From contig NZ_CP018620.1 in NCBI RefSeq assembly GCF_001908275.1, positions 992,001-1,056,000 of the forward strand: a DNA stretch of 64,000 nt, given 5' to 3'. Under the pieces are notes generated by a model. It saw only the letters and a list, made by a program, of their open reading frames with translations. It did no database searches and was not told the origin of the DNA. The stretch's first letter is position 1; every line of letters starts with the position of its first letter. This DNA is from Paenibacillus xylanexedens. Lineage in GTDB: Bacteria > Bacillota > Bacilli > Paenibacillales > Paenibacillaceae. Both the position numbers and the translations under genes were made by a program. This document shows positions 18,310 through 33,476 of this stretch, in pieces.

Positions 18310-19266
18310 ATGACTATGCAAACAGCAGGTATTCACCATATTACAGCTTTCGCAGGAGATCCACAGGCCAACGTTGATTTTTATGCCGGAGTTCTGGGAC
18401 TTCGTCTCGTGAAAAAAACAATCAACTTCGATGCACCTGATGTGTATCATCTGTACTTTGGAGACGAACACGGAAGCCCGGGTACCATCATTACCTTCTT
18501 CCCATCCGCTGGATCACCACGGGGCAAAATTGGCGGAGGTCAGGTCGGTATCACTTCCTATGTCATTCCTCCTGGGTCGATTGGCTTCTGGCAGAATCGG
18601 CTGGAACAGTATAACATTGAGGTAACCAAAACAAGTCGTTTCAATGAAGAGCTGCTTCAATTCGAAGATAGCGAAGGCCTGCGGCTTGAGCTTGTTGAAC
18701 GGGAAGAAGGAGCAACCAGCACTTGGACACACGAAGGGATTCCAACAGATAAAGCGATCAAAGGCTTCGGTGGTGCTGTCCTGTTCAGTGTTAATCCGCA
18801 AAGAACGATGGATGCTCTTGAGAAAATCATGGGATTTGTCAGAGTGAGTGAAAATGAAGAGTATGCCCGTTTCCGGTCCAGCGGGGATATCGGTAATGTC
18901 GTAGATGTTCCAGTGACCCGTATGGCTCTGGGTATGGGCGGCGCAGGAACCGTGCACCATATTGCATGGCGCGCCAAAGACGATGAAGAGCATGCACAGT
19001 GGAGTGAAGCTGTACGTGATTACGGGTACCAACCGACTCCAGTGCGGGATCGTCAGTACTTTAACGCAATCTATTTCAGAGAAGCTGGTGGCATTCTGTT
19101 TGAAATTGCTACAGATCCTCCGGGCTTTGCCAAAGATGAACCTGCTGATTCGCTTGGACAAAAATTGATGCTGCCTGAGTGGTTTGAGAAATACCGCCCT
19201 CAAATTGAGGACAATCTGCAACCAATTGTGGTAAGAACGCTTGCACCTGCTACAGCTGCGAATTAA
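18310..19266 (+). CDS. Ring-cleaving dioxygenase (VOC superfamily, MhqA/MhqO-like)
   Basis: A 318-residue extradiol-type dioxygenase made of two vicinal-oxygen-chelate modules. Metal ligands are likely His in AGIHHITAF (residues 9-10), His in GTVHHIAW and Glu in GGILFEIATDPPGF. Such enzymes open hydroquinone or catechol rings and detoxify quinones; in Bacillus the homologues are repressed by the MarR-type regulator MhqR. AAGGAGG sits 8 bases before the start, and the palindromic operator at 18200 fits that control. No marR gene is in the window, so the regulator would act in trans. Confidence 0.88.
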   Translation: MTMQTAGIHHITAFAGDPQANVDFYAGVLGLRLVKKTINFDAPDVYHLYFGDEHGSPGTIITFFPSAGSPRGKIGGGQVGITSYVIPPGSIGFWQNRLEQYNIEVTKTSRFNEELLQFEDSEGLRLELVEREEGATSTWTHEGIPTDKAIKGFGGAVLFSVNPQRTMDALEKIMGFVRVSENEEYARFRSSGDIGNVVDVPVTRMALGMGGAGTVHHIAWRAKDDEEHAQWSEAVRDYGYQPTPVRDRQYFNAIYFREAGGILFEIATDPPGFAKDEPADSLGQKLMLPEWFEKYRPQIEDNLQPIVVRTLAPATAAN

Positions 19267-19280
19267 TAAGAGTTCTATTA

Positions 19281-19443
19281 GAAAAAACCTGAAAACGAAG
19301 CGTTCGCCTAAAAGCTTTCTGAAAGAAAGCTACATCGGAAGCATATGCTATCCCCGGATTTTCCCTTAGGAAAAGGGAATCAAAAAAATCTGGGGATAAC
19401 AGCGATTGGAGGGTTATTCTGTCATCGGAGTGTAGGTGTAAAT
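19281..19443 (+). repeat. Dispersed structured repeat, copy A
   Basis: About 163 bases starting GAAAAAACCTGAA and ending GGTGTAAATG. It holds a CGAA/TTCG hairpin, an AAGCTTTC/GAAAGCTT-type hairpin, a long hairpin at 19349-19398 (TATCCCC pairing with GGGGATA, inner TCCCT with AGGGA), and a small ATT/GGT hairpin. Highly similar to copy B at 20764 and related to those at 29985, 31692 and 31864. It ends 25 bases before the ltrA-like start. Confidence 0.8.
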
Positions 19444-19468
19444 GAAAAACCTAAAGGAGCAACGAAGG

Positions 19469-20557
19469 ATGATGGAGAAAAAGGTTACCTGGCTGGAGCT
19501 GTTTTACGATCTGCTCTTTGTAGCAGCGGTCTCCAAAGCGGGTCATGTCTTGTTACATGCCGAACACGGAGTAATTACGTTTGAATATTTAATGAAGTTT
19601 GTGCTTATTTTTATCCCTGTTTGGTGGGCATGGGTCGGTCAGACCTTATTTATTAACCGCTATGGTCAAGATATCCTGATCCATCGAATATTCCTCATCC
19701 TTCAGCTCCTGTCCGTGATGGTCATGACGGCGAGTCTCTCTACCCATTTTGACCAATACTACTTGTCTTTCTTCGTGGGTTATATCGGTTCACGGGCTTT
19801 TACGGCGATTCAGTATCTGACGGTTCACAAGTCGAAAAGTGAGCATCAACAGCAAGCCGCTCGTTACTTGGGCATCTGTTTCCTCATTGGTATATTGATC
19901 TCATCGGGCTCACTATTCTTCGATTCCTGGTTGCGCTACTTGATTTTGTATGTGGGGATTGCCGTTGATATTTTGCTTCCGCTGATCGGACGCAAAAACT
20001 TGGTGAAAGTGCCCGTTCAGACCCATCACTTGTTGGAGCGTTTCGCGTTATTTACACTCATCCTGCTGGGTGAATCGGTGGTGAGCATTATCGCTGTGTT
20101 GCAAGCCGATCATTGGGATATGAAATCGATTTTGTTTGCCGCCTTTACGTCCATCTTTGTCATTGCGATGTGGTGGCAGTACTTCGACAACGTGGAGAAA
20201 AAGGTCAGCAAAGAGATCCAGACTGCCGGGCAAGCGATCATATACGGTCATCTGTTCATCTACATCTCCATGAGTATGATCGCTGCTTCAATTCAGCTGT
20301 TATATCAGAATCAGTTAAACTATGTGTTCATGCTAGGGTTTGTATTTGGATCAACGCTGTTGTATTTCTTGTCGACTTCCCTTGTGTTCCACCGCTACAG
20401 ACACGCACATCTGCGGCTGGGCCCGCGTCATCTGGCGGTCATGGTAGGGTTGCTGGTGGCATTTGTCCTTGTGGATCTGGTCTACCAGGTACCGGGTTAT
20501 GTCATCATGGGCGAAGAAATGTTATTCTTCCTGGTGTATGCGAAACTTACAACTTGA
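19469..20557 (+). CDS. LtrA-family (low temperature requirement A) membrane protein
   Basis: A 362-residue polytopic membrane protein with about ten hydrophobic segments. The N-terminal VTWLELFYDLLFVAAVSK and the later LLERFALFTLILLGESVVSII are the family signatures. LtrA was named from Listeria growth at low temperature; its molecular function is not established. The start at 19469 is chosen because AAAGGAG lies 9 bases before it; the ATG at 19442 falls inside the repeat element and has no ribosome site. A terminator follows at 20581. Confidence 0.85.
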   Translation: MMEKKVTWLELFYDLLFVAAVSKAGHVLLHAEHGVITFEYLMKFVLIFIPVWWAWVGQTLFINRYGQDILIHRIFLILQLLSVMVMTASLSTHFDQYYLSFFVGYIGSRAFTAIQYLTVHKSKSEHQQQAARYLGICFLIGILISSGSLFFDSWLRYLILYVGIAVDILLPLIGRKNLVKVPVQTHHLLERFALFTLILLGESVVSIIAVLQADHWDMKSILFAAFTSIFVIAMWWQYFDNVEKKVSKEIQTAGQAIIYGHLFIYISMSMIAASIQLLYQNQLNYVFMLGFVFGSTLLYFLSTSLVFHRYRHAHLRLGPRHLAVMVGLLVAFVLVDLVYQVPGYVIMGEEMLFFLVYAKLTT

Positions 20558-20580
20558 TATGCGTATCTCAAATGAAGAAC

Positions 20581-20612
20581 AGTCACGGACAACAGATGTC
20601 CGTGGCTTTTTA
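20581..20612 (+). terminator. Rho-independent terminator
   Basis: AGTCACGGAC pairs with GTCCGTGGCT (one T-G pair), followed by TTTTATT. Ends the ltrA-like gene. Confidence 0.85.
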
Positions 20613-20763
20613 TTATGCCGATAATCCTGGACATGTTTTAATTAAATAAATAAAGCACAAATCTAATTTAATTTCTTCTATAGAATCTGTTAATATGAGA
20701 CTAGGTACAAGTGAATCTACCAGATCATAGAATATCTTTTTATAAAATGAGTGTACGTTTTGT

Positions 20764-20993
20764 TATATAAATTGAACTAAACATTTACACGAAACGGAGA
20801 GGACAGAAAAAACCTGAAGAAGCGAAAGCGTTCGCCTAAAAGCTTTCTGAAAGAAAGCTGCATCGGAAGCATACGCTATCCCCGGATTTTCCCCATATAA
20901 GGGGGATTCATAAAATCTGGGGATAACAGCGATCGGAAGGTTATTCTGTCATCGGAGTGTCCAGTGTAAATATTCTTTAGTTCAATTTATATA
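20764..20993 (+). repeat. Dispersed structured repeat, copy B (most complete)
   Basis: A 230-base element bounded by a perfect 17-bp inverted repeat, TATATAAATTGAACTAA at 20764-20780 and its complement at 20977-20993, followed inward by TTTACAC (20784) pairing with GTGTAAA (20964). Inside are GCGAA/TTCGC, AAGCTTTC/GAAAGCT, a long hairpin TATCCCC...GGGGATA with inner TCCCC/GGGGA, and an ATC-GGAA-GGT hairpin. It ends 57 bases before the GH3 start. No open reading frame of note is inside. Confidence 0.85.
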
Positions 20994-21050
20994 GTTCATT
21001 TTATATATAGCGATTCGTAGGTATGGGGATGACAATCAGGAGGGAAATCA

Positions 21051-23834
21051 TTGAGCACACATCAAATCGGAGTTCCATTGGAAGGGTTTGCAGAGTTTAG
21101 TCGTACGGTTGCCGCAGAAGGAGCCGTTTTAGTCAGAAATGAAGGCCAAGTGCTTCCACTTCGTGAAAACGAAAACGTTTCAGTTTTTGGACGGATTCAA
21201 GTCAATTATTATCGCAGCGGCACAGGTTCAGGCGGTAGTGTTCATGTGGCCTACACAACGAATCTATTGGATGGTCTGCGCAGCAAAAAGAATATAACGG
21301 TCAATGAAGAGCTGGCAGCTGTCTATGAGAAGTGGATTGAGGAAAATCCATTTGATGATGGCGGAAAAGTATGGGCGGCTGAGCCATGGAATCAGAAAGA
21401 AATGCCTTTGACGGATGAACTTGTTGCACAGGCTAGAAGCAAATCCAGCAAAGCCATTATCGTGATTGGACGTACAGCAGGAGAAGACCAGGATAATGCG
21501 GATGCGCCAGGAAGTTACCAACTGACAGAAGATGAGAAAGCGATGTTGAAGCAAGTTACTTCGCAATTTGAACAAACAATCGTTGTGTTGAATGTCTCAA
21601 ATATCATCGACATGAGCTGGTTAAACGAAACGTATCTACATCCAATCCAAGGTGTAATTTACTCCTGGCATGGTGGTATGGAGGGTGGTAATGCGATTGC
21701 CGATGTGCTGGCGGGGGACGTTACACCAAGCGGTAAACTGACAGATACGATTGCATATTCCATCGAAGATTACCCTTCGACAAGCAACTACGGCAATGAG
21801 TTCAAGAACCTGTATCAGGAAGATATCTATGTAGGTTATCGTTATTTCGAAACGTTTCGACCTGAGCGTGTTCAGTTTGAATTCGGTTACGGCCTGTCTT
21901 ATACGACGTTTTTGGCTCAGCACGAAGAAGCAAAATCAGTGTCCAAAGACGGCGAAACCTACATTGAAGTTCGTGTAAATGTGACCAACTCAGGTACAAC
22001 ATATGCGGGCAAAGAGGTTGTGCAAGTTTATTATGAAGCACCACAAGGCAAACTGGGACAACCGGTGAAGGCTTTGGTGGCTTTTGGCAAAACAGGATTG
22101 TTGCAGCCGGGCGAGTCAGAAATTCTGACGATCAGCTTCCCGATCCATGCGATGGCATCTTACGATGATGCAGGCGTTACGGGCCATGCTTCCGCATACG
22201 TTCTGGAAGAAGGCACATACCGACTGCATGTAGGAACCAGTGTGAAACAAGTGCAGCATATCAGCATTGATTGCCAGGATGGCTATAGTATTGAATCTCT
22301 TCAATTGGTGGAGCAACTGCAAGAAGCGATGGCCCCAACTGAAGATTTTACACGGATGAAACCAGGTTCACGCAAGGAAGATGGATCTTATGAACTGACT
22401 TATGCAGAAGTACCGAAACGTAAGATATCCATGGCGAATCGGATTGAGCAGAATCTCCCGCAAACGCTGGAGCAGACAGGTAACCAGGGCCACAAGCTGA
22501 GTGACGTTAAGGCTGGCAAAGTGAGTCTGGAAACCTTCATCGCTCAACTGAGTGATCAGGATCTGGCGGCGATTGTCCGTGGCGAAGGCATGAGCAGTCC
22601 GCTCGTTACTTCGGGGACGGCATCTGCATTTGGTGGTGTCAGCGACAGCCTGTTTAACTACGGTATTCCGGTAGCATGTACGGCAGATGGCCCGTCCGGT
22701 ATTCGTATGGATAGTGGCGAGAAAGCAACACAGGTATCCATTGGTACGTTGCTTGCGGCGACATGGAATAAGGATCTTGTTGAAGAGTTGTATGTGATGG
22801 AAGGACAGGAATTGCTGAGAAATCAGGTGGATACCCTGCTCGGGCCTGGACTCAATATCCGCCGGAGCCCGCTCAATGGCCGGAACTTTGAGTACTTCTC
22901 CGAAGATCCACTGATCTCGGGTGTATTTGCCGCAGCGTGTACAAAAGGTATTATGAAGGGTGGTTCTAATGCGACACTGAAACACTTTGCCTGCAACAAC
23001 CAGGAGAAGCACCGCAGTAAAGTAGATGCTGTTGTCTCTGAGCGTGCACTGCGTGAAATTTACCTGAAAGGGTTCGAAATCGCTGTAAAAGAAGGCGGAG
23101 CAAACTCCATCATGACCTCCTACAACCCGGTTAACGGACACTGGGCGGCATCCAACTACGACCTGAACACCACGATTTTGCGTGGCGAATGGAATTTCGA
23201 GGGTATCGTCATGACCGACTGGTGGGCGATTATGAACGATGTGACCGAAGGTGGCGAGGCTGATCGCAAATACACCAACTGGATGATTCGTGCGCAGAAT
23301 GATCTCTACATGGTTGTACCGAACTATGGCGCAGAGATTAACGGCTGGGACGATAACACGATTGAATCCTTGGAAAATGGAACATTGACTCGCGGAGAGC
23401 TGCAACGCTCGGCGATTAATATCTGCAAGTTCATCATGAATGCACCAGTGTCCGGCAGAAAACACGAGATCGTGGAGAACGTCGCTTCGTTCCAAGCGAA
23501 TGCATCCCTATCTGCTGCAAAAGCTCAGGCGCTGGTTGAGAACGCACAGGTGAAACCTGCGGTAGCTGAACCCGTCTACATGAAAGTGGACGAGGCAGGT
23601 CATTATCGGATTATCGTACAGATCATGTCCCCTGAGCCGGAACTTGCTCAAAGTGCATGTAACCTGCTCCTGAATGACCAGTTGGTAACCACCATCCAAA
23701 CAAATGGTACGGAAGGCAAATGGATCAGACAGAAACTTGTCAAAGTAGATCTTGAAGCAGGACTGTATGAATTGAAACTGGACTTCACGAAACCAGGTCT
23801 CCAGATTGACTGGATCGAATTCAAACAGGTGTAG
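21051..23834 (+). CDS. GH3 glycoside hydrolase with permuted domain order
   Basis: A 927-residue family 3 enzyme (beta-glucosidase type) whose domains come in reverse order. The domain usually C-terminal comes first (EGAVLVRNEGQVLPL, residues about 20-240), then a fibronectin-III-like domain (AGKEVVQVYYEAP), then the catalytic barrel (CTADGPSGIRMD, LGPGLNIRRSPLNGRNFEYF, TLKHFACNNQE) with nucleophile Asp723 in GIVMTDWWA. The last 110 residues resemble a carbohydrate-binding beta-sandwich. Inverted GH3 enzymes are known. Start codon is TTG at 21051, supported by CAGGAGGG 6 bases upstream. No signal peptide, so cytosolic. Confidence 0.9.
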   Translation: MSTHQIGVPLEGFAEFSRTVAAEGAVLVRNEGQVLPLRENENVSVFGRIQVNYYRSGTGSGGSVHVAYTTNLLDGLRSKKNITVNEELAAVYEKWIEENPFDDGGKVWAAEPWNQKEMPLTDELVAQARSKSSKAIIVIGRTAGEDQDNADAPGSYQLTEDEKAMLKQVTSQFEQTIVVLNVSNIIDMSWLNETYLHPIQGVIYSWHGGMEGGNAIADVLAGDVTPSGKLTDTIAYSIEDYPSTSNYGNEFKNLYQEDIYVGYRYFETFRPERVQFEFGYGLSYTTFLAQHEEAKSVSKDGETYIEVRVNVTNSGTTYAGKEVVQVYYEAPQGKLGQPVKALVAFGKTGLLQPGESEILTISFPIHAMASYDDAGVTGHASAYVLEEGTYRLHVGTSVKQVQHISIDCQDGYSIESLQLVEQLQEAMAPTEDFTRMKPGSRKEDGSYELTYAEVPKRKISMANRIEQNLPQTLEQTGNQGHKLSDVKAGKVSLETFIAQLSDQDLAAIVRGEGMSSPLVTSGTASAFGGVSDSLFNYGIPVACTADGPSGIRMDSGEKATQVSIGTLLAATWNKDLVEELYVMEGQELLRNQVDTLLGPGLNIRRSPLNGRNFEYFSEDPLISGVFAAACTKGIMKGGSNATLKHFACNNQEKHRSKVDAVVSERALREIYLKGFEIAVKEGGANSIMTSYNPVNGHWAASNYDLNTTILRGEWNFEGIVMTDWWAIMNDVTEGGEADRKYTNWMIRAQNDLYMVVPNYGAEINGWDDNTIESLENGTLTRGELQRSAINICKFIMNAPVSGRKHEIVENVASFQANASLSAAKAQALVENAQVKPAVAEPVYMKVDEAGHYRIIVQIMSPEPELAQSACNLLLNDQLVTTIQTNGTEGKWIRQKLVKVDLEAGLYELKLDFTKPGLQIDWIEFKQV

Positions 23835-23841
23835 AAGATAA

Positions 23842-23895
23842 TCGGAAATATCAGGTGATAGCAACAATCGAAAGATTGTTCTGTCATCAAAAGTA
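23842..23895 (+). repeat. Fragment of the dispersed structured repeat (copy F)
   Basis: Only the 3' part is recognisable: a GGTGATAGCA stretch, then AACAATC-GAAA-GATTGTT, then CTGTCATC. The 7-bp stem capped by GAAA shows the small terminal hairpin of the family in its clearest form. Confidence 0.55.
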
Positions 23896-23914
23896 GAATA
23901 CGTGGGTACATGAC

Positions 23915-23943
23915 AAAGGACACCGTTCGCGGGTGTCCTTTGT
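23915..23943. terminator. Rho-independent terminator
   Basis: AAAGGACACC pairs with GGGTGTCCTTT around GTTCGC and is followed by GTTGT. Ends the permuted GH3 gene. Confidence 0.75.
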
Positions 23944-24023
23944 TGTAACACGGAATAGCTACTGTTATGATAATGTTATGAGATTCGTAGTTCTGAACAA
24001 TGGAGTCAGGGGTGTTGCGAGGA

Positions 24024-24215
24024 ATGAGAAATTATAATTTTTTGAGTCCAATCCTGCTGGTTGTGGTGGCGCTGATTGTAAGAGGCCTGGTGACTAACCT
24101 GGGAGTTCTTTTCGGACTATCACAAGAAGTGGCGAGTAATATTGCCATGATAGCCATGATTATTGCTGCACTGATTATGTTTAATCGAATGACGAAGGCT
24201 CGGCGTAGAAAATAG
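24024..24215 (+). CDS. Small membrane protein of unknown function
   Basis: A 63-residue protein with two hydrophobic helices (SPILLVVVALIVRGLV and EVASNIAMIAMIIAALIMF) and a basic C-terminus (KARRRK), which by the positive-inside rule points both ends into the cytosol. No family is recognised. An in-frame ATG at 24000 exists, but AGGGGTG lies about 9 bases before 24024, so the later start is favoured. Confidence 0.6.
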   Translation: MRNYNFLSPILLVVVALIVRGLVTNLGVLFGLSQEVASNIAMIAMIIAALIMFNRMTKARRRK

Positions 24216-24253
24216 AAAAGCTCGGATAACCAGAAGGTTATCCAAGACACGAA

Positions 24254-24277
24254 GACACCCTCCGGGTGTCTTTTTTT
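24254..24277 (+). terminator. Rho-independent terminator
   Basis: GACACCC-TCC-GGGTGTC followed by seven T. A preceding GATAACC/GGTTATC hairpin at 24222-24241 has no T run. Confidence 0.88.
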
Positions 24278-24431
24278 GTATTGACGTTCTGATCCTAACG
24301 TTTTAGACTATTGCTAATCGATAATAACATTATAAATAACAAAAATAACAAAACTCGTCAAACAAAGTATATGGTATCCGTTGCGCTCTCTATTTGCTAG
24401 CCCATTCCGGTCCCCAAAGGAGAATCCAATC

Positions 24432-24518
24432 ATGAAGATCATTGCCGACAAACCATATATTGTTCAGGACGGCCAGCCTTTGCAGATTTTCATCTGGAAG
24501 CTGACCGTCTTCAGATAA
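24432..24518 (+). CDS. Short ORF, leader peptide or gene remnant
   Basis: A 28-codon frame (MKIIADKPYIVQDGQPLQIF and eight more residues) starts 8 bases after AAAGGAG and stops 8 bases before a strong terminator hairpin. The sequence looks like the N-terminus of a larger protein, so it may be a decayed gene start; alternatively it could be a translated leader. The stretches 24278-24431 and 24569-24748 hold no other supported gene. Confidence 0.35.
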   Translation: MKIIADKPYIVQDGQPLQIFIWKLTVFR

Positions 24519-24526
24519 TGATGAAG

Positions 24527-24568
24527 AAGGACCGCAGGAGCGCTGATGAAGCGTTCAGTCGGTCCTTT
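24527..24568 (+). terminator. Rho-independent terminator or attenuator before cutC
   Basis: AAGGACCG pairs with CGGTCCTT and the inner AGCGCT with AGCGTT, followed by a short T run. It lies between the 28-codon ORF and cutC. Confidence 0.65.
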
Positions 24569-24748
24569 ATGTCATGGATCAGGCTGTGTGCAGTTCGAGT
24601 GATGTCTATCAATACTGGTTAACGATGCGAGGGTTGGGTGAGAATACGGGATTGCAATCTCGGAAGTATCTACTTACGACATAATGTCCTGCTGATGATC
24701 ACCTTAATACGCTGGAATAATCTACGATGAAGTGAAGGGAGCTACATT

Positions 24749-25519
24749 ATGGAAAGACAGCCTGTATTGGAAGTCATCGCTGTAGATGCGGCAGATGCCA
24801 AAGCAGCTGAGGAGGGAGGGGCTGATCGGATTGAGCTGGTGTCTGCGATGTCCGAAGGAGGACTTACCCCCAGTTATGGCGTCATGGAGCATGTGGTATC
24901 CCAGGTATCCATTCCGGTGTATGTCATGATCCGTCCCCATAGCCGCTCGTTCCGCTATAGCGCAGATGACATCCACGCCATGACCCGGGATGTACGCGTG
25001 GCGAGGGAACTTGGAGCCGCTGGCATCGTGATCGGCGCCCTCACCGGAGATGGTGAAGTGGACCTTTTATCCATGCAATTATGTATGGCCGAAGCTCAGG
25101 GTTTGGGCGTTACGTTTCATCGTGCTATTGATGTGAGCACAAGCCTGACTGAGGCGCTCAAGGCCATTAACACATTGGGCAACGTGGGGCGTGTACTTAC
25201 ATCGGGAGGAAAACAGACAGCACCTGAAGCGATGCAAGAACTGAAACAGCTTCAGCAATTGGGGCAAATCTTGAACATCGCTGTCATGGCAGGGTCGGGG
25301 GTCACCATAGAGGGAATTCAAACGCTAGTGAGGCAGACGGGTATCACGGAAATCCATATGGGATCAGGCGTGAGGTACAAAGGGAGCTTTAATTATCCCA
25401 TTGATCCACATTTGGTTGAAGAAGCCAAGCAGCAGTTATTGCTTGCATCAAGGCCATTCATGGACAGTAGTGCACTGAGTAGTGGTCCAAGCAAGGGTGT
25501 TGATATAGGGATGCGCTAA
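24749..25519 (+). CDS. cutC: CutC family protein
   Basis: A 256-residue TIM-barrel protein of the CutC family: LEVIAVDAADAKAAEEGGADRIELVSAMSEGGLTPS is the N-terminal signature (quoted in two overlapping parts: residues about 7-24 and 25-42), with IPVYVMIRPH, VTFHRAIDVS, RVLTSGG and IHMGSGVR following. The family was linked to copper tolerance, but its biochemical role is unsettled. Here it is 19 bases before a GH29 fucosidase gene and likely co-transcribed, a position often seen for CutC within sugar loci, hinting at a carbohydrate-related role. Confidence 0.88.
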   Translation: MERQPVLEVIAVDAADAKAAEEGGADRIELVSAMSEGGLTPSYGVMEHVVSQVSIPVYVMIRPHSRSFRYSADDIHAMTRDVRVARELGAAGIVIGALTGDGEVDLLSMQLCMAEAQGLGVTFHRAIDVSTSLTEALKAINTLGNVGRVLTSGGKQTAPEAMQELKQLQQLGQILNIAVMAGSGVTIEGIQTLVRQTGITEIHMGSGVRYKGSFNYPIDPHLVEEAKQQLLLASRPFMDSSALSSGPSKGVDIGMR

Positions 25520-25538
25520 ATAAAAGGAGTGATACGCC

Positions 25539-26999
25539 ATGAATCGTGAACTGCAACCAGCCGAATGGATTAAGTCCGCAGCACAGGTCAGCCCATCCGA
25601 ACGCCAGATGAGATGGCAGGAGATGGAGTTCTACGCGTTTATTCATTTTACGGTAAATACATTTACGGATCAGGAATGGGGCACTGGGGAGGAAGACCCG
25701 GCGATCTTCAATCCTTCTGAACTGAGCGCAGCGCAATGGGTGCAGGCGTGCAAGGCTGCGGGGATGAAGGGGCTGATTTTGACTTGTAAGCATCATGATG
25801 GATTTTGTTTGTGGCCCAGTCAATTTACAGCGCATACGGTCGCGGCTAGTCCGTGGAGGAATGGTAGGGGGGATTTGGTTCGGGAAGTTTCCGATGCCTG
25901 CCGTGAGGGCGGGTTGAAGTTTGGCGTGTACCTGTCTCCTTGGGATCGTCATGAAGCCACTTATGGAGATTCCGAGAGGTATAACGAGTTTTTCCTCCAA
26001 CAGTTGCGCGAGCTGCTTACGAATTATGGCGACATCTTCTGTGTATGGTTCGATGGTGCATGTGGTGAGGGTCCGAATGGCAAAAGGCAGGTCTATGACT
26101 GGGACGCCTATTATGCGCTTATTCGTGAACTTCAGCCTGAGGCTGTCATCTCGGTATGTGGCCCGGATGTTCGCTGGTGTGGCAATGAGGCAGGGCATAC
26201 ACGGGAATCGGAATGGAGCGTTGTGCCAGCGCATATGCAGGGTAATGAGAAGATTCAGGAGCAATCGCAACAGGTGGATGATGGTGAGTTCGCCACAAGG
26301 ATCAATACGCAGGACGGTGATTTGGGAAGCCGAGAGGTCATTCGTTCCCAAGGTGAGCCACTGATCTGGTACCCTGCCGAGGTGAATACCTCGATTCGCC
26401 CAGGATGGTACTATCATGCCAGTGAAGATGATCAGGTCAAAACACTGGAAGAACTGCTCGCCGTGTACTACGGTTCAGTGGGGGGTAACGCCACCTTTTT
26501 GCTGAATCTTCCACCGGATAGGCGTGGTCTCATTCACGAAACGGATGTGCAGCGACTACAGGAATTGGGAGATTCGCTGCGTACCATTTTTCAGGAAAAT
26601 TTCGCCTTGCAGGCGCTGGTAAAAGCATCGGAGACGATGGATGAACAACATGCCGTATCGGAAGTGCTGACGGAACGCCGGGATACGTATTGGTGTCCTC
26701 ACGAAGGAACAGAACAGGCTTGGATTGAGCTGGATTTGCAGGAAGAAAGATCATTTGACCGGGTGGTGCTGATGGAACATATCCAGACAGGTCAACGGAT
26801 TGAGCGTTTTACACTGGAGTCGCAGAGGGCAGATGGTGGTTGGGAAACGTTTTACACGGGGACGGTGGTGGGGCATAAGCGAATTTGCTGTTTCCCACAG
26901 GTCACATCGAGAAAGATGCGATTAAGCATTCATGAATCCAGATGGTACCCTACGTTGTCCGGGTTAGGCATATATCTGAGCGAGCGGGGAGGGTTGTAA
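25539..26999 (+). CDS. GH29 alpha-L-fucosidase (first of two)
   Basis: A 486-residue family 29 alpha-L-fucosidase. The barrel shows MEFYAFIHFTVNTFTDQEWG, LTCKHHDGFCLWPSQ, the nucleophile Asp172 in VWFDGACGEG and ATFLLNLPPDRRG. The C-terminal 130 residues (AWIELDLQEERSFDRVVLMEH to the end) resemble a discoidin/F5-8 type beta-sandwich. This layout is typical of fucosidases acting on alpha-1,3/1,4-fucose, which need two adjacent sugars. No signal peptide. It follows cutC by 19 bases and precedes the GH35 gene by one base, forming a cutC-GH29-GH35 operon. AAAGGAG supports the start. Confidence 0.9.
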   Translation: MNRELQPAEWIKSAAQVSPSERQMRWQEMEFYAFIHFTVNTFTDQEWGTGEEDPAIFNPSELSAAQWVQACKAAGMKGLILTCKHHDGFCLWPSQFTAHTVAASPWRNGRGDLVREVSDACREGGLKFGVYLSPWDRHEATYGDSERYNEFFLQQLRELLTNYGDIFCVWFDGACGEGPNGKRQVYDWDAYYALIRELQPEAVISVCGPDVRWCGNEAGHTRESEWSVVPAHMQGNEKIQEQSQQVDDGEFATRINTQDGDLGSREVIRSQGEPLIWYPAEVNTSIRPGWYYHASEDDQVKTLEELLAVYYGSVGGNATFLLNLPPDRRGLIHETDVQRLQELGDSLRTIFQENFALQALVKASETMDEQHAVSEVLTERRDTYWCPHEGTEQAWIELDLQEERSFDRVVLMEHIQTGQRIERFTLESQRADGGWETFYTGTVVGHKRICCFPQVTSRKMRLSIHESRWYPTLSGLGIYLSERGGL

Positions 27000-27000
27000 A

Positions 27001-28770
27001 ATGGCGGTGCTGATGTATAAAGGTTCACAATTTATGTATGATGACGAGCCCATTCGGATTATGTCGGGTGCCATCCATTATTTCAGAGTGGTCCCCGACT
27101 ATTGGGAGGATCGGTTACTCAAGCTGAAAGCCTGCGGTTTCAATACAGTAGAAACGTATGTGCCGTGGAATGTTCATGAGCTCCAGCCGGGGCAGTATTG
27201 TTTTGAAGGCATGGCTGATCTGGAACGTTTTATTCGCATTGCGGGAGATGTGGGTCTACATGTGATTGTTCGCCCAAGTCCTTATATATGTGCTGAGTGG
27301 GAGTTTGGCGGATTACCTGCCTGGCTGCTTGCTGATGATGATATTCGTCTGCGGTGTAATGATGCAAAATTTCTGGAGAATGTGGATCGTTACTATGATG
27401 TGCTTTTACCCAAATTGAAACCCCTTCTGAGCACCCTTGGTGGGCCGATCATCGCGATGCAGATTGAAAATGAGTACGGCAGTTTTGGCAATGATGCGAG
27501 CTACCTGCGATATTTACGGGATGGCATGGTGAAGCGCGGTATGGATATGTTGTTATTTACCTCGGACGGACCGACAGACCACATGCTGCAAGCGGGATCA
27601 GTGCCAGGGCATCTGGCTACGGTTAATTTTGGATCAGGAACGGAGGGAGCGTTCGCCAAGCTGCGTGAATATCAGACGGGCGAACCTTTAATGTGCATGG
27701 AATATTGGAACGGCTGGTTCGACCACTGGGGAGAGTCACATCATACCCGAGAAGCCGCTGATGTAGCTGGTGTGTTTGAGGAGATGCTTCGAGCGGGAGC
27801 TTCGGTTAACTTTTATATGTTCCACGGTGGAACAAACTTTGGATTTTACAACGGGGCGAACTGTCAGCAGAAGGATCAATACGAACCAACGATTACAAGT
27901 TACGACTACGATTCACTGCTTAGTGAATCCGGGGAGCCGACAGCGAAATTCCATGCGGTGAGGGACCTTATTGCTCGGTATAGCGATGAAGATCTGGGTG
28001 AGCTTGTGCTGCCAGAATCAAAGGGGACCATCGCTTATGGGCGGGTGGAGTTGAACCAGCAGGCATCATTACTGGCGCAGTTGGACCGGATATCAGCCCC
28101 GGTGCAGCGTACGAATCCGGAACCGATGGAGAAGCTGGGTCAGGATTATGGATTTATTTGTTATCAGACCCGAATATCCGGGCCCAGGGAGCGACAGGAA
28201 CTGGTGGTTCAGGAGGTGTGTGACCGTGCGCTTGTGTTTGTTGATAGGCAATTTCAGGGTGTATTGGAACGCGGAAATCCAGCATTATCGGTATCCTTTG
28301 AAGTGCCGCCAGGGGGCGTAGATCTATTGATCCTTGTTGAAAATATGGGGCGAATCAACTATGGCCCGTACCTGAGAGATCCGAAGGGAATCACCGAGGG
28401 TGTGCGACATGGCTTTCAATTTTTATATAATTGGACGATTCATTGTCTGCCATTAACTGATCTGTCGGATTTGCAATTTAGTGATGTGATTAGCGAAGCA
28501 ATTAATGAAGTACAGGGACCAGCATTTTATCAAGGAGAGTTTCATATCACGGATGTAAGAGATACTTTTCTGCGACTGGATAACTGGACCAAAGGGGTTG
28601 TATTTGTAAACGGATTCAATCTGGGGCGCTACTGGAATAAAGGACCGCAAAAAACGTTATATGTACCAGCCCCGCTCCTTCGTGAAGGTGAGAATGAAAT
28701 CATCGTATTCGAGCTTCATCAGACGTCTGAATTCGCCGTAACGTTCGTGGATACACCGGATTTGAGCTAG
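27001..28770 (+). CDS. GH35 beta-galactosidase
   Basis: A 589-residue family 35 beta-galactosidase. The N-terminal barrel has IMSGAIHYFRVVPDYWEDRL, ETYVPWNVHE, RPSPYICAEWEFGGLPAWLL, the acid/base Glu158 in QIENEYGSFG and the nucleophile Glu234 in CMEYWNGWFDHWG. Two C-terminal beta domains end with KGVVFVNGFNLGRYWNKGPQ, a family hallmark. No signal peptide. Many members favour beta-1,3-galactose. The gene starts one base after the GH29 stop. Confidence 0.92.
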   Translation: MAVLMYKGSQFMYDDEPIRIMSGAIHYFRVVPDYWEDRLLKLKACGFNTVETYVPWNVHELQPGQYCFEGMADLERFIRIAGDVGLHVIVRPSPYICAEWEFGGLPAWLLADDDIRLRCNDAKFLENVDRYYDVLLPKLKPLLSTLGGPIIAMQIENEYGSFGNDASYLRYLRDGMVKRGMDMLLFTSDGPTDHMLQAGSVPGHLATVNFGSGTEGAFAKLREYQTGEPLMCMEYWNGWFDHWGESHHTREAADVAGVFEEMLRAGASVNFYMFHGGTNFGFYNGANCQQKDQYEPTITSYDYDSLLSESGEPTAKFHAVRDLIARYSDEDLGELVLPESKGTIAYGRVELNQQASLLAQLDRISAPVQRTNPEPMEKLGQDYGFICYQTRISGPRERQELVVQEVCDRALVFVDRQFQGVLERGNPALSVSFEVPPGGVDLLILVENMGRINYGPYLRDPKGITEGVRHGFQFLYNWTIHCLPLTDLSDLQFSDVISEAINEVQGPAFYQGEFHITDVRDTFLRLDNWTKGVVFVNGFNLGRYWNKGPQKTLYVPAPLLREGENEIIVFELHQTSEFAVTFVDTPDLS

Positions 28771-28856
28771 AAAAAGGAAAATAGGTGAGCCAAACGATTA
28801 TTGAGAATTGTCGTGTCCGCCAGAAAAAGGTATACGTTGGGTATGGACAATGACTA

Positions 28857-29016
28857 GGGCGTGTCTGAAAACTCCGAAGGACGCAGATTTTGCCGAATTT
28901 TCGTTCCAAGCAAGGAAATTTTCTGCAGGCGTGCCGGGGCACGTCAAGGGAAAGTGACGCAGCAGGGGGCGAAAAGGTGGTAAAAGATGCACTTCAGTGA
29001 GTTTTGAGACACGTCC
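28857..29016. mobile_element. MITE-like element, 160 bp, no transposase
   Basis: The ends are inverted repeats: GGGCGTGTCTGAAAACTC on the left and GAGTTTTGAGACACGTCC on the right (2 mismatches in 18). TA flanks both ends, as for a TA target duplication. The inside has no open frame of note but a CGTGCC/GGCACG hairpin. It sits between the GH35 gene and the isomerase gene and leaves both intact. Confidence 0.75.
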
Positions 29017-29037
29017 TACAGGAGAGGATGAGGGGAA

Positions 29038-29904
29038 ATGAAAGTTGGACTCAGCACCTACAGTCTGCAACAAGCATTGGATCGCAAAGAATTGACCGTA
29101 CCAGATGCCATTCGTTGGATCGCCGATCAGGGTGGGGAACATGTGGAGATTGTACCGATGGGATTCAGTCTGATCGATAACCCGGAGTTGATTGATGAGA
29201 TTAAAGCTGCGGCAAAAGAGGTTGGAATTGATATTTCCAATTATGCCATCGGCGCCAACTTTGCTGTGCAGGAGGACGCCGAAGCGTTGGAGCAAGAGAT
29301 CCAGAATGTGATGCGACATGTGGATGTGGCTGCAGCGCTCGGTGTGAAGCTGATGCGTCATGATGTGGCTTTCCGCCCTGCACCAGAGGGAACCGTAGCA
29401 CAGTTTGAGATCGACCTGCCGGTACTAGTGAAGGCTTGTCAGCGCATAGCCGATTATGCAGCGGGTTTTGGAATTACAACAAGCGTTGAGAACCATGGGT
29501 ACTATGTGCAGTCGAGTGAGCGAATTCAGCGTTTGTTACACGAAACAGCGCGGAGTAACTTCAAGACCACACTGGATGTCGGCAATTTCCTCTGTGTGGA
29601 TGAAGATCCGGTGAGTGCCGTAAAAAATAACATTCCGTACGCGTCGATCGTGCACGCCAAAGACTTCTACTGGAGACCTTCCTACCGGAACCCCGGTGAA
29701 GGCTGGTTTCAAACCTCGCATGGCAATTACCTGCGCGGTGCCATTGTGGGCCATGGCGATATCGACATGCCTGAGGTGTTCCGTGTGTTGAAAAAATCCG
29801 GGTATGACGGATATATCTCGGTTGAATTTGAAGGCATGGAGGATTGCAAAACCGCCTCACGCATTGCCATGGATAACGTCCGCCGCCTATGGGAAGAGGC
29901 ATAG
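29038..29904 (+). CDS. Sugar phosphate isomerase/epimerase (AP endonuclease 2-like TIM barrel), paralogue 1
   Basis: A 288-residue xylose-isomerase-like TIM-barrel protein starting MKVGLSTYSLQQALD. Metal-binding type residues occur in GGEHVEIVPMG, TTSVENHGYYV, TTLDVGNFLCVDE and the C-terminal YISVEFEGMED. Such proteins isomerise or epimerise sugars or their keto forms. It is clearly related along its full length to the protein at 46273, sharing FKTTLDxGNF, NYLRGAIVG/NFLRGAIVG and RRxWEEA. It follows a MITE, so its transcription may have been separated from the GH29-GH35 operon. GAGGGG precedes the ATG. Confidence 0.85.
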   Translation: MKVGLSTYSLQQALDRKELTVPDAIRWIADQGGEHVEIVPMGFSLIDNPELIDEIKAAAKEVGIDISNYAIGANFAVQEDAEALEQEIQNVMRHVDVAAALGVKLMRHDVAFRPAPEGTVAQFEIDLPVLVKACQRIADYAAGFGITTSVENHGYYVQSSERIQRLLHETARSNFKTTLDVGNFLCVDEDPVSAVKNNIPYASIVHAKDFYWRPSYRNPGEGWFQTSHGNYLRGAIVGHGDIDMPEVFRVLKKSGYDGYISVEFEGMEDCKTASRIAMDNVRRLWEEA

Positions 29905-29984
29905 GGCTGAGTGCTTGTTTTAAATGAAATATGAATTGTTACGTATGGCTCAAACAGAAAGTTAGTTCAGTCAGAAAAAGTAGT

Positions 29985-30117
29985 GGAGGGGGCGAAATCG
30001 ATTCTGAAGAAACGAAGAGTTCGCCTTTATCACCGGATTTCCCCCTTTGGAAAAAGGGGATTAAAGAAATCTGGGGGTAAGAGCGATCGGAAGAACGATT
30101 CGCAACCGGAACGTCTA
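29985..30117 (+). repeat. Dispersed structured repeat, copy C
   Basis: A diverged copy: CTGAAGAAACGAAGAGTTCGCC with a CGAA/TTCG hairpin, then CCGGATTTCCCC pairing with GGGG and GAAATCTGG at 30031-30079, then GCGATCGGAAGAACGATT. It lacks the AAGCTTTC hairpin of copies A and B. It ends about 40 bases before the oxidoreductase start. Confidence 0.7.
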
Positions 30118-30160
30118 CCTGCTGGACGTCAATTATTTTATTTATGGAGGAATCAGCACT

Positions 30161-31219
30161 ATGTCCAAATTGAAAGTCGCCGTTATCGGTGCCGGATCAA
30201 TATCCGATTGCCATTTGCAAGCCTACGCCAGTAATCCGGACGTTGAAATATACGCCATCTGCGACCTGAATGCAGAACGTGCCGCAGAAGTGGCAAAGCA
30301 ATATGATGCACCTCATGTGTTTACCGATTACAAAGAATTGCTCGCACTGCCCGAGATTCATTCCGTCAGCATCTGCACATGGAACGACTCCCATGCGGAG
30401 ATTAGTATTGCTGCCCTGGACGCGGGCAAAAACGTGCTGTGTGAGAAACCGCTCTGCCAAACCGTGGAGGATGCCCTCGAAGTAGAGAAGGCCGTTCATC
30501 GCAGCGGAAAGCTGCTGCAAGTTGGTTTTGTTCGCCGCTATAGCGACAATGCACAAATTCTGAAGAAGTTCATCGATGAGGGTGAACTGGGCGAGATCTA
30601 TTATGCCAAAGCCTCCAGTCTGCGTCGTCTGGGCAATCCGGGTGGCTGGTTCTCGGATATCAACCGTTCCGGCGGGGGTCCGCTGATCGATATCGGGGTG
30701 CATGTGATCGACATTTGCTGGTATCTGATGGGCAGACCGAAGGTGAAATCCGTCTCCGCTAACGTGTCTAACCGATTGGGGAACCGCTCGAACATTAACA
30801 ATCTGTCGTTCTACAAAGCAGCCGACTACGACGCAGAACAGAACACCGTTGAGGATATGGCAAATGCCCTGATCCGTTTCGAGAACGGTGCGAGCCTGCT
30901 CGTGGATGTCAGCTTCACGCTCCATGCCAAAGCGGATGAGACTTCGGTCAAACTATATGGCGACAAGGGCGGTGCCGAGTTGGAGCCGGAAATTTCGATT
31001 ATTGGCGAGAAATTCAACACCATTTTGAACATGACTCCACAGGTGGATTTCAAATCATTCGATTTTATGGGATCGTTCCGCAACGAAATCAACCATTTTA
31101 TAGATAGCACGCAGGGCCGCAAAGAAACACTTAGTCCCGTCGAAGACGGCGTCGAGGTAATGAAAATGCTCTGCGCCATTTACGAATCAGCCCGTCAGGG
31201 CCGCGAAATCACACTATAA
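30161..31219 (+). CDS. Gfo/Idh/MocA family oxidoreductase
   Basis: A 352-residue NAD(P)-dependent sugar or cyclitol dehydrogenase. The N-terminal Rossmann fold shows LKVAVIGAGSISDCHLQAY, the catalytic lysine is in NVLCEKPLC, and GPLIDIGVHVIDICWYLMG in the C-terminal domain carries the usual substrate-site His. Family members oxidise myo-inositol, glucose derivatives and similar sugars. Placed between an isomerase-fold gene and a fucosidase gene, it probably acts on a sugar released by the surrounding hydrolases. Strong GGAGG precedes ATG. Confidence 0.9.
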   Translation: MSKLKVAVIGAGSISDCHLQAYASNPDVEIYAICDLNAERAAEVAKQYDAPHVFTDYKELLALPEIHSVSICTWNDSHAEISIAALDAGKNVLCEKPLCQTVEDALEVEKAVHRSGKLLQVGFVRRYSDNAQILKKFIDEGELGEIYYAKASSLRRLGNPGGWFSDINRSGGGPLIDIGVHVIDICWYLMGRPKVKSVSANVSNRLGNRSNINNLSFYKAADYDAEQNTVEDMANALIRFENGASLLVDVSFTLHAKADETSVKLYGDKGGAELEPEISIIGEKFNTILNMTPQVDFKSFDFMGSFRNEINHFIDSTQGRKETLSPVEDGVEVMKMLCAIYESARQGREITL

Positions 31220-31392
31220 AAGGGGCTTTGCAGTACGGAGTTGCTCCAAGTTGATACTTTACTACTCCCGTGGCATTGAAAGTTATGAGCATTTCGCTCC
31301 CTTTCAATGAAAAGCTCGCTCCGGGCGGGTATGGATTCGTCCTCTCGTCCCGCGATTGGAGCAGAGCATGGAGCGAGCGCTAACGAATCTGA

Positions 31393-31561
31393 GGCGTCTT
31401 ATTTAAGGCTCTGAAGCACCAGTAGAAATCTAAGAAACCTGAGACACGCTATATGAGAATTAACAGCAGTTTACAGCGTTTTTATCAGCTAATTTCGGGA
31501 AATAACGTGTCTGATGTTCCTTACAATTTAAAAAGAGGACCAAAAGGCTAAATAAGACGCC
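31393..31561. repeat. 169-bp palindromic repeat
   Basis: Outer arms GGCGTCTTATTTA (31393) and TAAATAAGACGCC (to 31561) are perfect complements. Inner arms AAATCTAAGAAACCTGAGAC (from 31426) and the matching CGTGTCTGATGTTCCTTAC region (to 31529) also pair well, so almost the whole stretch can fold into one long hairpin. No reading frame inside. Looks like a non-autonomous mobile palindrome. Confidence 0.65.
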
Positions 31562-31691
31562 CTGAATTCCTTAGAAAATTCTCTACCCATTCGCCAGGAT
31601 CAACCACTTGGATTTCGAGACGTTATAAACGCGCGGACATCCATCATCGTATATCTTCCTAAACTGAAGTTGAAGAGACGTCCTATAATAC

Positions 31692-31830
31692 TTACCGTTT
31701 ACACCAAAATGGTGAGTGCAGAACTAATCCAAAACAACGAAGCGCTCGCTCTCTGCCCGTGGATTTCCCTATAGAAATGAGGGAAATAAGGGTTTCATAG
31801 TAATTGAAGATGGCACCGCACTCGAAATAA
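31692..31830 (+). repeat. Dispersed structured repeat, copy E (decayed)
   Basis: Shows CCGTTTACACCAAAATGG, a CGAAGCGCTCG hairpin and ATTTCCCT pairing with AGGGAAAT, followed by a weakened 3' part (GAAGATGGCACCGCACTCG). Lies directly before copy D in tandem. The stretch 31220-31392 upstream holds only a CATTGAAAG/CTTTCAATG inverted repeat and no gene. Confidence 0.6.
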
Positions 31831-31863
31831 CAAAGTTACCTACGCCCTTAATAGTTAAACTAA

Positions 31864-32019
31864 GCGTTTACGCCAAAACGGAGAGGGCAGAACCAATCTG
31901 AAGAAGCGAAGCGCTCGCCTTTATCAACGGATTTCCAACAATTATAAAGTGAAATAAGAGAAATCAGGGGATAACAGCGATCGAAAGATGGTACTGCACT
32001 CGGAGTGACCAGGCGTAAC
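31864..32019 (+). repeat. Dispersed structured repeat, copy D
   Basis: TTACGCC (31868) pairs with GGCGTAA (32012) to close the element, where copy B uses TTTACAC with GTGTAAA. Inside are GAAGCGAAGCGCTCGCC, a weakened central hairpin, GGGGATAACAGCGATCGAAAGAT and CACTCGGAGTG. It ends 45 bases before the second GH29 gene. Confidence 0.75.
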
Positions 32020-32063
32020 ATGCATGGTTTATCTTTTATCCAATCCAGAGGAGATGAAACAGG

Positions 32064-33476
32064 ATGAGCGAAACCAAAGAAACCGTACTGGAGCAGGAAG
32101 AGCAGATCGTCGAAGCCGGGGTGCACAATTTTAGCAAAGAGGAAGAGTGGATCAAACCGGAAGATCCGCTGCTGAATGAGCGGCTAGAGTGGTTCAAGGA
32201 CCAGAAGCTGGGGCTGATGATGCACTGGGGGCCGTATTCTCAGCTTGGCCTCGTGGAATCCTGGGCGCTGAGCGACGAGGACGGCGATTGGTCGCGTGAT
32301 GACATCGACTGGACGGATGACATGGAAGACTTCAAGCGGGAATATTTCGATCTGAACAAAACCTTCAATCCGATTCGCTTCCAGCCTGAGGAATGGGCAC
32401 AAATGGCGGCAGATAACGGGTTCAAATACTTCCTGTTCACCACCAAGCACCATGACGGTTTCTGCATGTGGGATACCAAGACGACGGATTACCGGATTAC
32501 GGGTAAGGACACGCTTTTTCATACCCATAAGTATGCGGACATCTGTCGAGCACTGTTTGACGCTTTTCGGGCGAAAGGACTCGGCATCTCAGCGTATTTC
32601 TCCAAAGCGGACTGGCATACCCCGTATTACTGGGCACCGGGCATGGAGCGTGGACGTCATATGTGGCGCGGCCCTTCGTATGATCCCCATAAGTATCCAT
32701 GGTTGTGGGAGAAATTTGTGGAGTTCACACATGAGCAGATCATGGAACTGCTGACCAATTACGGGCGAATCGAATGTCTGTGGCTGGATGCCGGTTGGGT
32801 GCGCGAAGGTCGTCACGGTCAGGATATTAGGCTTGGAGAAGTCGTGGAACGGGCGCGTCAGACCACACAGCCTTGGCTCCTGTCCGCAGATCGCACCGTC
32901 GGTGGACCGTATGAGAATATCGTTACCCCCGAGCAGACCATACCGGAACATCCGATGAACATTCCATGGGAGAGCTGTATTACCGTGGGGAACTCCTTTG
33001 CCTTCGGATTCGATGATCAGTATAAAACGGGAAGACAGCTGGCACATATTCTACTCGAAGTCGTGTCCAAGGGCGGTAACCTGGCGCTGAATATAGGACC
33101 ACAACCCGATGGCCGTCTGCCAAAAGGGGCAATTCGAGGCATCAAGGGCCTCGGTGAATGGCTGGGTACTCACGGAGAAGGTGTCTATGGAACCCGGATA
33201 TGCGGGCCGTATTTTACGAAAGATTGGGCTTTCACGCAGAAGGAAGAGATCAACACCGTATATGCTTTCCGTTTATACCGAAACGAGAATGAGACCGTAC
33301 AACCACAGTTAACCATTCCTTATCTGGAAAAGGTAGAGCGTATCGAACTTATTGGTAGCGATGACGTACTTTCGTATCAGCAGACGGAAGATGGACTTCT
33401 CGTGGAACTGCCACAATCGGCTACAACCAGTGCAGCTCCGATCACATACACGTTCAGATTGGTCACAAGCGCATAG
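32064..33476 (+). CDS. GH29 alpha-L-fucosidase (second of two)
   Basis: A 470-residue family 29 fucosidase with an acidic 40-residue N-terminal extension before WFKDQKLGLMMHWGPYSQLG. Further motifs are FLFTTKHHDGFCMWDT, the nucleophile Asp242 in CLWLDAGWVREG, and GGNLALNIGPQPDGRLP. The C-terminal part is a short beta-sandwich. It differs clearly from the enzyme at 25539, so the two probably prefer different fucosyl linkages. No signal peptide. GAGGAG lies about 10 bases before the ATG. Copy D of the repeat lies just upstream and a terminator follows. Confidence 0.9.
   Translation: MSETKETVLEQEEQIVEAGVHNFSKEEEWIKPEDPLLNERLEWFKDQKLGLMMHWGPYSQLGLVESWALSDEDGDWSRDDIDWTDDMEDFKREYFDLNKTFNPIRFQPEEWAQMAADNGFKYFLFTTKHHDGFCMWDTKTTDYRITGKDTLFHTHKYADICRALFDAFRAKGLGISAYFSKADWHTPYYWAPGMERGRHMWRGPSYDPHKYPWLWEKFVEFTHEQIMELLTNYGRIECLWLDAGWVREGRHGQDIRLGEVVERARQTTQPWLLSADRTVGGPYENIVTPEQTIPEHPMNIPWESCITVGNSFAFGFDDQYKTGRQLAHILLEVVSKGGNLALNIGPQPDGRLPKGAIRGIKGLGEWLGTHGEGVYGTRICGPYFTKDWAFTQKEEINTVYAFRLYRNENETVQPQLTIPYLEKVERIELIGSDDVLSYQQTEDGLLVELPQSATTSAAPITYTFRLVTSA

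Follow-up and report, generated by a model that had tools for sequence, protein, structure and literature searches.

In the 64,000-nucleotide stretch of the genome of the soil bacterium Paenibacillus xylanexedens that we refer to as the window (NZ_CP018620.1; G000:C1:992001-1056000, in a genome of 7.1 Mb), five copies (A, B, C, D', and E) and one 3' fragment belong to a single family of repeats, and the element that they represent occurs genome-wide at 165 or more places, partial ones included. Judged from sequence, it is probably a MITE (miniature inverted-repeat transposable element) belonging to an IS630-family transposon, with a body that is a conserved, sense-strand structured RNA most likely acting in cis as a leader. 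The fold of the body is under selection, the element has moved, and its copies prefer the sense orientation and a place 40-59 nt ahead of start codons.

The body folds into a structure of about 150 nt composed of a closing stem (P1), a mini-hairpin (P2), a short helix (P3), and a long arm (P4). The sequence of P1 is rewritten between copies; P2 has the form GC-[GNA or GNNA]-GC, in which both pairs switch together to AC/GT or GT/AC; and P3 is of the UCGC/GCGA type, occurring also as UUCC/GGAA and CCGC/GCGG. In place of the automatic structure of model R1, a hand-made structure was drawn up on the alignment A3 (41 matches, 32 of them distinct, from 11 genomes), on which model R2 was then built. 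In A3, 92.1% of the cells pair, and 35 of the 37 pairs have changed on both sides among the 32 distinct distant rows; the score of 0.683 compares with 0.205 for shuffled and 0.088-0.183 for slid partners. The score also amounts to 0.227 versus 0.104 within this genome (107 rows) and to 0.365 versus 0.142 in relatives (81 rows). When 97 distinct copies were compared with a tree-based null (our own script, not R-scape, with 240 replicates; with only 15, E<0.05 was out of reach and no pair was significant), 25 of 10,878 column pairs were significant at E<0.05, all of them among the 37 annotated pairs. By eye, a recurrent ACC...AAUCAA was noticed near the tip of P4 (A3 columns 143-145 and 162-168). 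Across 162 places, furthermore, G-U pairs outnumber A-C by 388 to 37, and still by 147 to 36 after exclusion of majority-GU pairs, with 26 of the 29 informative pairs favoring G-U; this excess marks the + strand as RNA-like.

A complete element is about 195 nt long in its short form and about 232 nt in its long form, which contains an extra module of about 39 nt; at the loci L197 and L200, this module is repeated. Intact copies carry terminal inverted repeats, CTATATAARTTGAACTAA, outside TTTACAC/GTGTAAA. Both ends lie within 3 mismatches of 18 in 50 of 150 copies, and TATATAARTTGAACTAAA is found with at most 2 mismatches at 132 places versus 2 for its reversed control, while many copies are internally deleted or have decayed ends. 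The element is thus short, multicopy, and without a transposase gene, as is expected of a MITE. In terms of counting, model R1 listed at least 150 places, 162 distinct places (partial ones counted) emerged when R2 was used to realign the loci retrieved, and three more came from another search; each DNA search scored the best 40 of 208-230 candidates. Tandem arrays of two or three copies, with repeat units of roughly 300 nt, were also observed in genomes with few copies, namely G009 (L094/L102 and L109/L116), G030 (L103/L117), and G058 (L099/L114).

A first-pass annotation of the window had grouped the five copies and the fragment as one family with a common plan, and both models, the DNA search, and BLASTN bear out this grouping with corrected boundaries (Table 1). 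TTTACAC/GTGTAAA, which had been given as the closing stem of copy B, is not the end of the element; intact copies reach CTATATAA..TTATATAG. The plan itself needs amendment in that A and B hold the extra module and A lacks its 5' end, still present in the locus L121 at the orthologous place. Copy B, rightly counted as a member, is nested inside the remains of an older copy. Model R2 recovers A (weakly, at 42 bits), B, C, and E; D' falls below its threshold (E<=0.01), and the fragment is absent from the listings of both R1 and R2, these two being too degraded for R2. In the DNA search, nonetheless, D' matches copy E at 71%, and BLASTN aligns 49 nt of the fragment at 82% with 49.1 bits, as compared with 31.0 bits for the best control (185 control windows with any match). 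Copy B alone in the window has both ends intact; the median of summed end mismatches in random windows (n=400) is 18.

Table 1. Copies of the element and associated features in the window. Ends, mismatches of 18 at each of the two ends; ORF, open reading frame.
Feature	Positions	Strand	R1 match	Ends	Remarks
Copy A	19255..19447	+	19255-19443	9, 10	long form, 5' end lost; overlaps first called codons of ltrA-like ORF (19442-20557)
Older-copy remnant left of copy B	20741..20763	+			matches older-copy arms in L124 and L126
Left TA of copy B target duplication	20764..20765	.			L124 has one TA here, GTTTTGT-TA-GTTC
Copy B	20766..20991	+	20784-20971	1, 0	complete long form, both inverted repeats; RNA core 20784-20971
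Extra module (~39 nt) of long form	20838..20876	+			two small hairpins; from comparison of long and short copies
Right TA of copy B target duplication	20992..20993	.			from comparison with L124
Older-copy remnant right of copy B	20994..21012	+			from comparison with relatives
3' fragment of a copy	23840..23888	+			BLASTN; directly past GH3-like ORF (21051-23834)
Copy C	29972..30125	+	29972-30117	7, 7	short form without intact IS630-type ends; precedes Gfo/Idh-type oxidoreductase ORF (30161-31219)
Copy D'	31698..31841	+	31698-31841	7, 8	short form, degraded; 79.7 bits with R1
Copy E	31867..32020	+	31867-32020	5, 7	short form; core end 43 nt ahead of fucosidase-like ORF (32064-33476)

Mobility is evident from loci around the ltrA-like gene, of which 75 named ones were collected; the species of Paenibacillus represented include P. 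amylolyticus, P. xylanexedens, and P. pabuli. At site A, the long form is present in the window and L121, the short form in L126, L134, and L192, and internally deleted forms in L124 and L125, and there is no copy in L122 and L141. Among the loci listed, site B is filled in nine (L134, L126, L124, L192, L121, the window, L130, L129, and L136) and empty in L127 and L137-L140, where the flanks of L136 are nearly intact; presence and absence at orthologous places are hence documented for both A and B. At site B, furthermore, L124 reads GTTTTGT-TA-GTTC and the window reads GTTTTGT-TA-[element]-TA-GTTC, inside the older copy. This is the one site with a clean TA duplication against a pre-insertion sequence; elsewhere the TA merges with the TATA-rich ends. 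At site C, all 11 listed loci with both flanks aligned (window included) have more than 200 nt. Twelve loci that had been picked for having a model match were also aligned there. Two subtypes occur among the twelve, differing in the sequences of P1 and P4 and with or without the long module; L137 retains the outer arm of the other subtype, and one copy thus seems to have been replaced by another in place.

The terminal repeats (18 bp at the 5' end and 21 bp at the 3' end) are common to the element and IS630-family transposons of congeners. In L345 (genome G006), 21-bp ends, CTATATAARTTGAACTAAAGA, flank a transposase with 0 and 0 mismatches of 21, and the transposon ends have 0 and 1 mismatch in L358 (G086), 3 and 1 in L360, and 2 and 2 in L362; the remaining loci with a DDE_3 domain (PF13358) have an element-type end at one side only, a weak one, or none. 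Read inward, the 3' end of the element is CTATATAAgTTGAACTAAAGAaTaTTTACAC (62 copies), and the 5' end is cTATATAAgTTGAACTAAaCATTTACAC (70 copies), from which the 18 bp in common at the 5' side follow. PF13358 matched in 11 of 39 genomes searched and gave no match in this genome (G000), and a search of 60 genomes of the genus with the body of L345 gave matches in 17, often short ones, with nothing in G000. An autonomous partner with the same terminal repeats is therefore found in congeners (L345 and L358) and was not found here by these searches. Twenty regions around repeat ends in this genome were also examined by eye and pattern scan as candidates for an autonomous element; no repeat-framed transposase was seen, and the regions contain ordinary copies, remnants, internally deleted copies, and two IS110-type insertions. 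In L199 (G000:C1 near 744016) and L200 (near 3714001), a transposase gene presumably of the IS110 type, as its translated start suggests, or the same end sequence abuts the terminal repeat, as if an IS110 element targeted these repeats. A search for the RNA core in 13 of the 23 DDE_3 loci gave no match, and derivation of the body from the partner transposon thus finds no support in those 13; such derivation is seen in some MITEs and is not a defining property.

Placement relative to genes, which were called with a simple codon-usage script, is not random. Of 149 copies with both neighbors, those between co-directional genes comprise 85 in sense and 22 in antisense orientation (p=6e-10), and the others 22 in divergent and 20 in convergent spacers. 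The core ends 40-59 nt before the called start in 41 of the 107 copies with a same-sense downstream gene, the median being 49 nt. The first-pass annotation had cautioned that orientation is weak evidence in the window, where that caution is right; genome-wide the sense bias is strong and partly shared with the direction of replication. It had also offered a structured leader RNA and a nonautonomous mobile palindrome as alternatives. Compensatory changes in the stems, which it had pointed out, are confirmed by the scores of three alignments and exceed phylogeny in our tree-based null; together with the orientation (85:22), they favor an RNA, and the empty sites in relatives and the TA duplication favor mobility, so both readings hold together.

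The RNA is not confined to this genus. R2 matches 210 of the 247 genomes of the order (which we take to be Paenibacillales in the sense of GTDB) at E<=1e-5, in 33 of 45 genera. In a draw of 398 genomes from the class, 39 matched, 38 of which were inside the order; the sole match outside came from G322 of another order (E=6e-6). In one other genus, five genomes with two or three matches each were inspected. A copy lies in the ilvC-leuA spacer in all five, 42-47 nt ahead of leuA, and in the citZ-icd spacer in four, none of the three matches of the fifth (G145) being at icd; the gene names are our reading of translations, and at two icd loci the called start is earlier, inside the element. These leuA and icd copies are conserved, the adjoining spacer is not, and paired changes such as TTTGTC/GACAAA to TTTGCT/AGTAAA are found. 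Their ends resemble the IS630-type repeat no more than expected by chance (6-10 mismatches of 18). In three genomes of a third genus, a copy lies ahead of a fucosidase-like gene. When 30 context loci were compared with the neighbors of 150 copies, three kinds recurred, fucosidase-like (32% identical), DnaJ-like (77%), and oxidoreductase (67%), besides two generic ones; leuA and icd did not recur between genera in this comparison. In L304 and at G000:C1:5680680-5680867, from two genera, a copy is directly 3' of the DnaJ-like gene in opposite orientations, and in L319 (G121) a copy lies antisense and 359 nt away from an oxidoreductase gene 67% identical to that of copy C. Three of the four printed loci of G051 (L097, L106, and L113) are framed, by eye, by a different inverted repeat, GAGCGTGTTCAAAAAGG, which suggests the use of other transposon ends, possibly of another insertion sequence family. 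It is conceivable, and we propose it only tentatively, that a conserved, general-purpose cis-acting leader RNA domain, common to much of the order, travels as cargo of DNA transposons, is picked up by different transposon ends, and is dispersed before unrelated genes, with some copies (at leuA, icd, and the oxidoreductase site) having become fixed regulators.

Several observations weigh against our reading of the element as a mobile leader RNA. The structure guided the fitting of the alignments and was itself refined on A3; in the distant set, G-U is only weakly in excess (39:24, p=0.08); and the TA duplication rests on a single site. Pairing drops slightly with end decay (rho -0.27, p=0.001), with 176 broken cells in decayed copies and 111 in intact ones. 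In co-directional spacers, antisense copies pair as well (94.3%, n=20) as sense copies (93.7%, n=85; p=0.50), and the fold may therefore serve the element, not a host gene. Neighbor sites differ between genera apart from the three recurring kinds, which speaks against a role for the host. Orientation also tracks replication (112 leading versus 38 lagging), and sense outnumbers antisense by 77:14 at leading-strand genes, as compared with 8:8 at lagging-strand genes; the directions of genes and of replication are confounded in this genome and cannot be fully separated. The origin was set at 0.72 Mb, inside an unsampled gap of about 0.69-0.99 Mb, and the terminus near 4.35 Mb. Equal structure in sense and antisense copies, the tracking of replication, and the many internally deleted or end-decayed copies would suit a purely selfish MITE, in which the fold is kept for the element itself (as a DNA or RNA intermediate or for harmlessness upon transcription) with no gain to the host, and in which the sense orientation stems from the loss of harmful insertions by purging or from an insertion bias tied to replication. 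We consider this account rather unlikely, however, as the G-U bias marks one strand as RNA-like, the leuA and icd copies are conserved between diverged flanks without IS630-type ends, and site C holds a copy in every listed locus with both flanks aligned. Compensatory changes are, moreover, plentiful in copies with decayed ends (n=69), which have 164 double-changed paired cells versus 37 in intact copies (n=59), with 93.1% and 94.9% of cells paired, respectively; some of the decayed-end copies may be other subfamilies and not old copies.

A riboswitch or another ligand-sensing leader acquired by a transposon would agree with a three-way-junction RNA with conserved unpaired positions, with sense leaders at a preferred distance, and with the tandem copies. 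The neighbors examined nonetheless span different pathways (leuA, icd, fucosidase, GH3, and oxidoreductase, read from translations), no single pathway emerging among the neighbors read, while the 150 copies were not annotated as a set; in 29900-32100, the only stretch scanned, 2 terminator-like sites stand against an expectation of 2.6, and one of the two, at 30111-30129, overlaps copy C at its end. Such a sensor is thus very unlikely. Least likely of all, in our view, is a family of small RNAs that act in trans and owe their copy number to transposition: the compact fold, the intergenic location, and the 42 of 149 copies (about a quarter) that are not sense to the downstream gene would fit, but the sense bias and the preferred distance to start codons, the rewriting of P1 between copies, and the absence of promoter-like sites in the same 29900-32100 stretch (0, where shuffles give 2.5) do not. 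Rfam gave 0 matches above the gathering score in the window and 0 in 20 loci of distant copies, with only chance-level matches (E 1.4-9.4) in 31600-32100.

As for the mechanism of the mobile leader RNA, an IS630-type transposase would act in trans and insert the element at TA sites. The IS630 family targets TA with a preference for CTAG, and the C and G flanking the TA of the element hint at a CTAG target. Copies landing between a promoter or upstream gene and a ribosome-binding site may be tolerated or kept, and the RNA would be transcribed there as a leader or intercistronic segment and act in cis. Its most likely role would be that of a folded spacer, protecting or processing the mRNA and keeping the ribosome-binding site free, and some copies may become fixed leaders, such as those at leuA and icd in another genus.

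RUP of Streptococcus pneumoniae is a small MITE tied to an IS630-family transposon and resembles the present element in both respects; we know, however, of no conserved multi-branched RNA core in RUP. IS630-family transposons of Paenibacillus have the same terminal repeats and probably the same TA target but carry a transposase, and no core was found in the 13 loci mentioned above. Rfam leader RNAs and riboswitches are likewise compact, covarying, and sense in leaders, whereas our element has no Rfam match, is mobile, and has neighbors of different pathways. The nearest known kind is the BOX elements of S. pneumoniae. According to the available part of PMC3049150, which also names RUP, BOX elements are short and repetitive, end in inverted repeats, have a predicted RNA fold, and contain an inner module whose number varies; they are sometimes transcribed in leaders, are over-represented between convergent genes, and have been proposed to be moved by an insertion sequence in trans. 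Shortness, terminal inverted repeats, RNA fold, and inner module are shared, the modularity (boxA-boxB-boxC in BOX) by analogy only. The present element differs in lying mostly sense in co-directional spacers, in a core that spans an order, and in having 25 pairs that covary beyond the tree-based null; the term "covariation" is absent from that part of PMC3049150. Paenibacillus is not mentioned in the available part of a review of MITEs (PMC10969869). Among the listings of Creative Commons-licensed texts, no report of such an element in Paenibacillus turned up.

Short repeats in bacteria tend to be regarded as junk whose hairpins are incidental. In the present case, evidence of the sort applied to riboswitches identifies the hairpin as a selected RNA, which is present in more than 100 copies in one genome and has a known transposon family as its likely mover; the old question of whether bacteria obtain ready-made RNA regulators from transposons thereby becomes testable. 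The element also provides a family for annotation ahead of many Paenibacillus genes, in which a transposon appears to scatter a ready-made RNA module, often directly ahead of genes.

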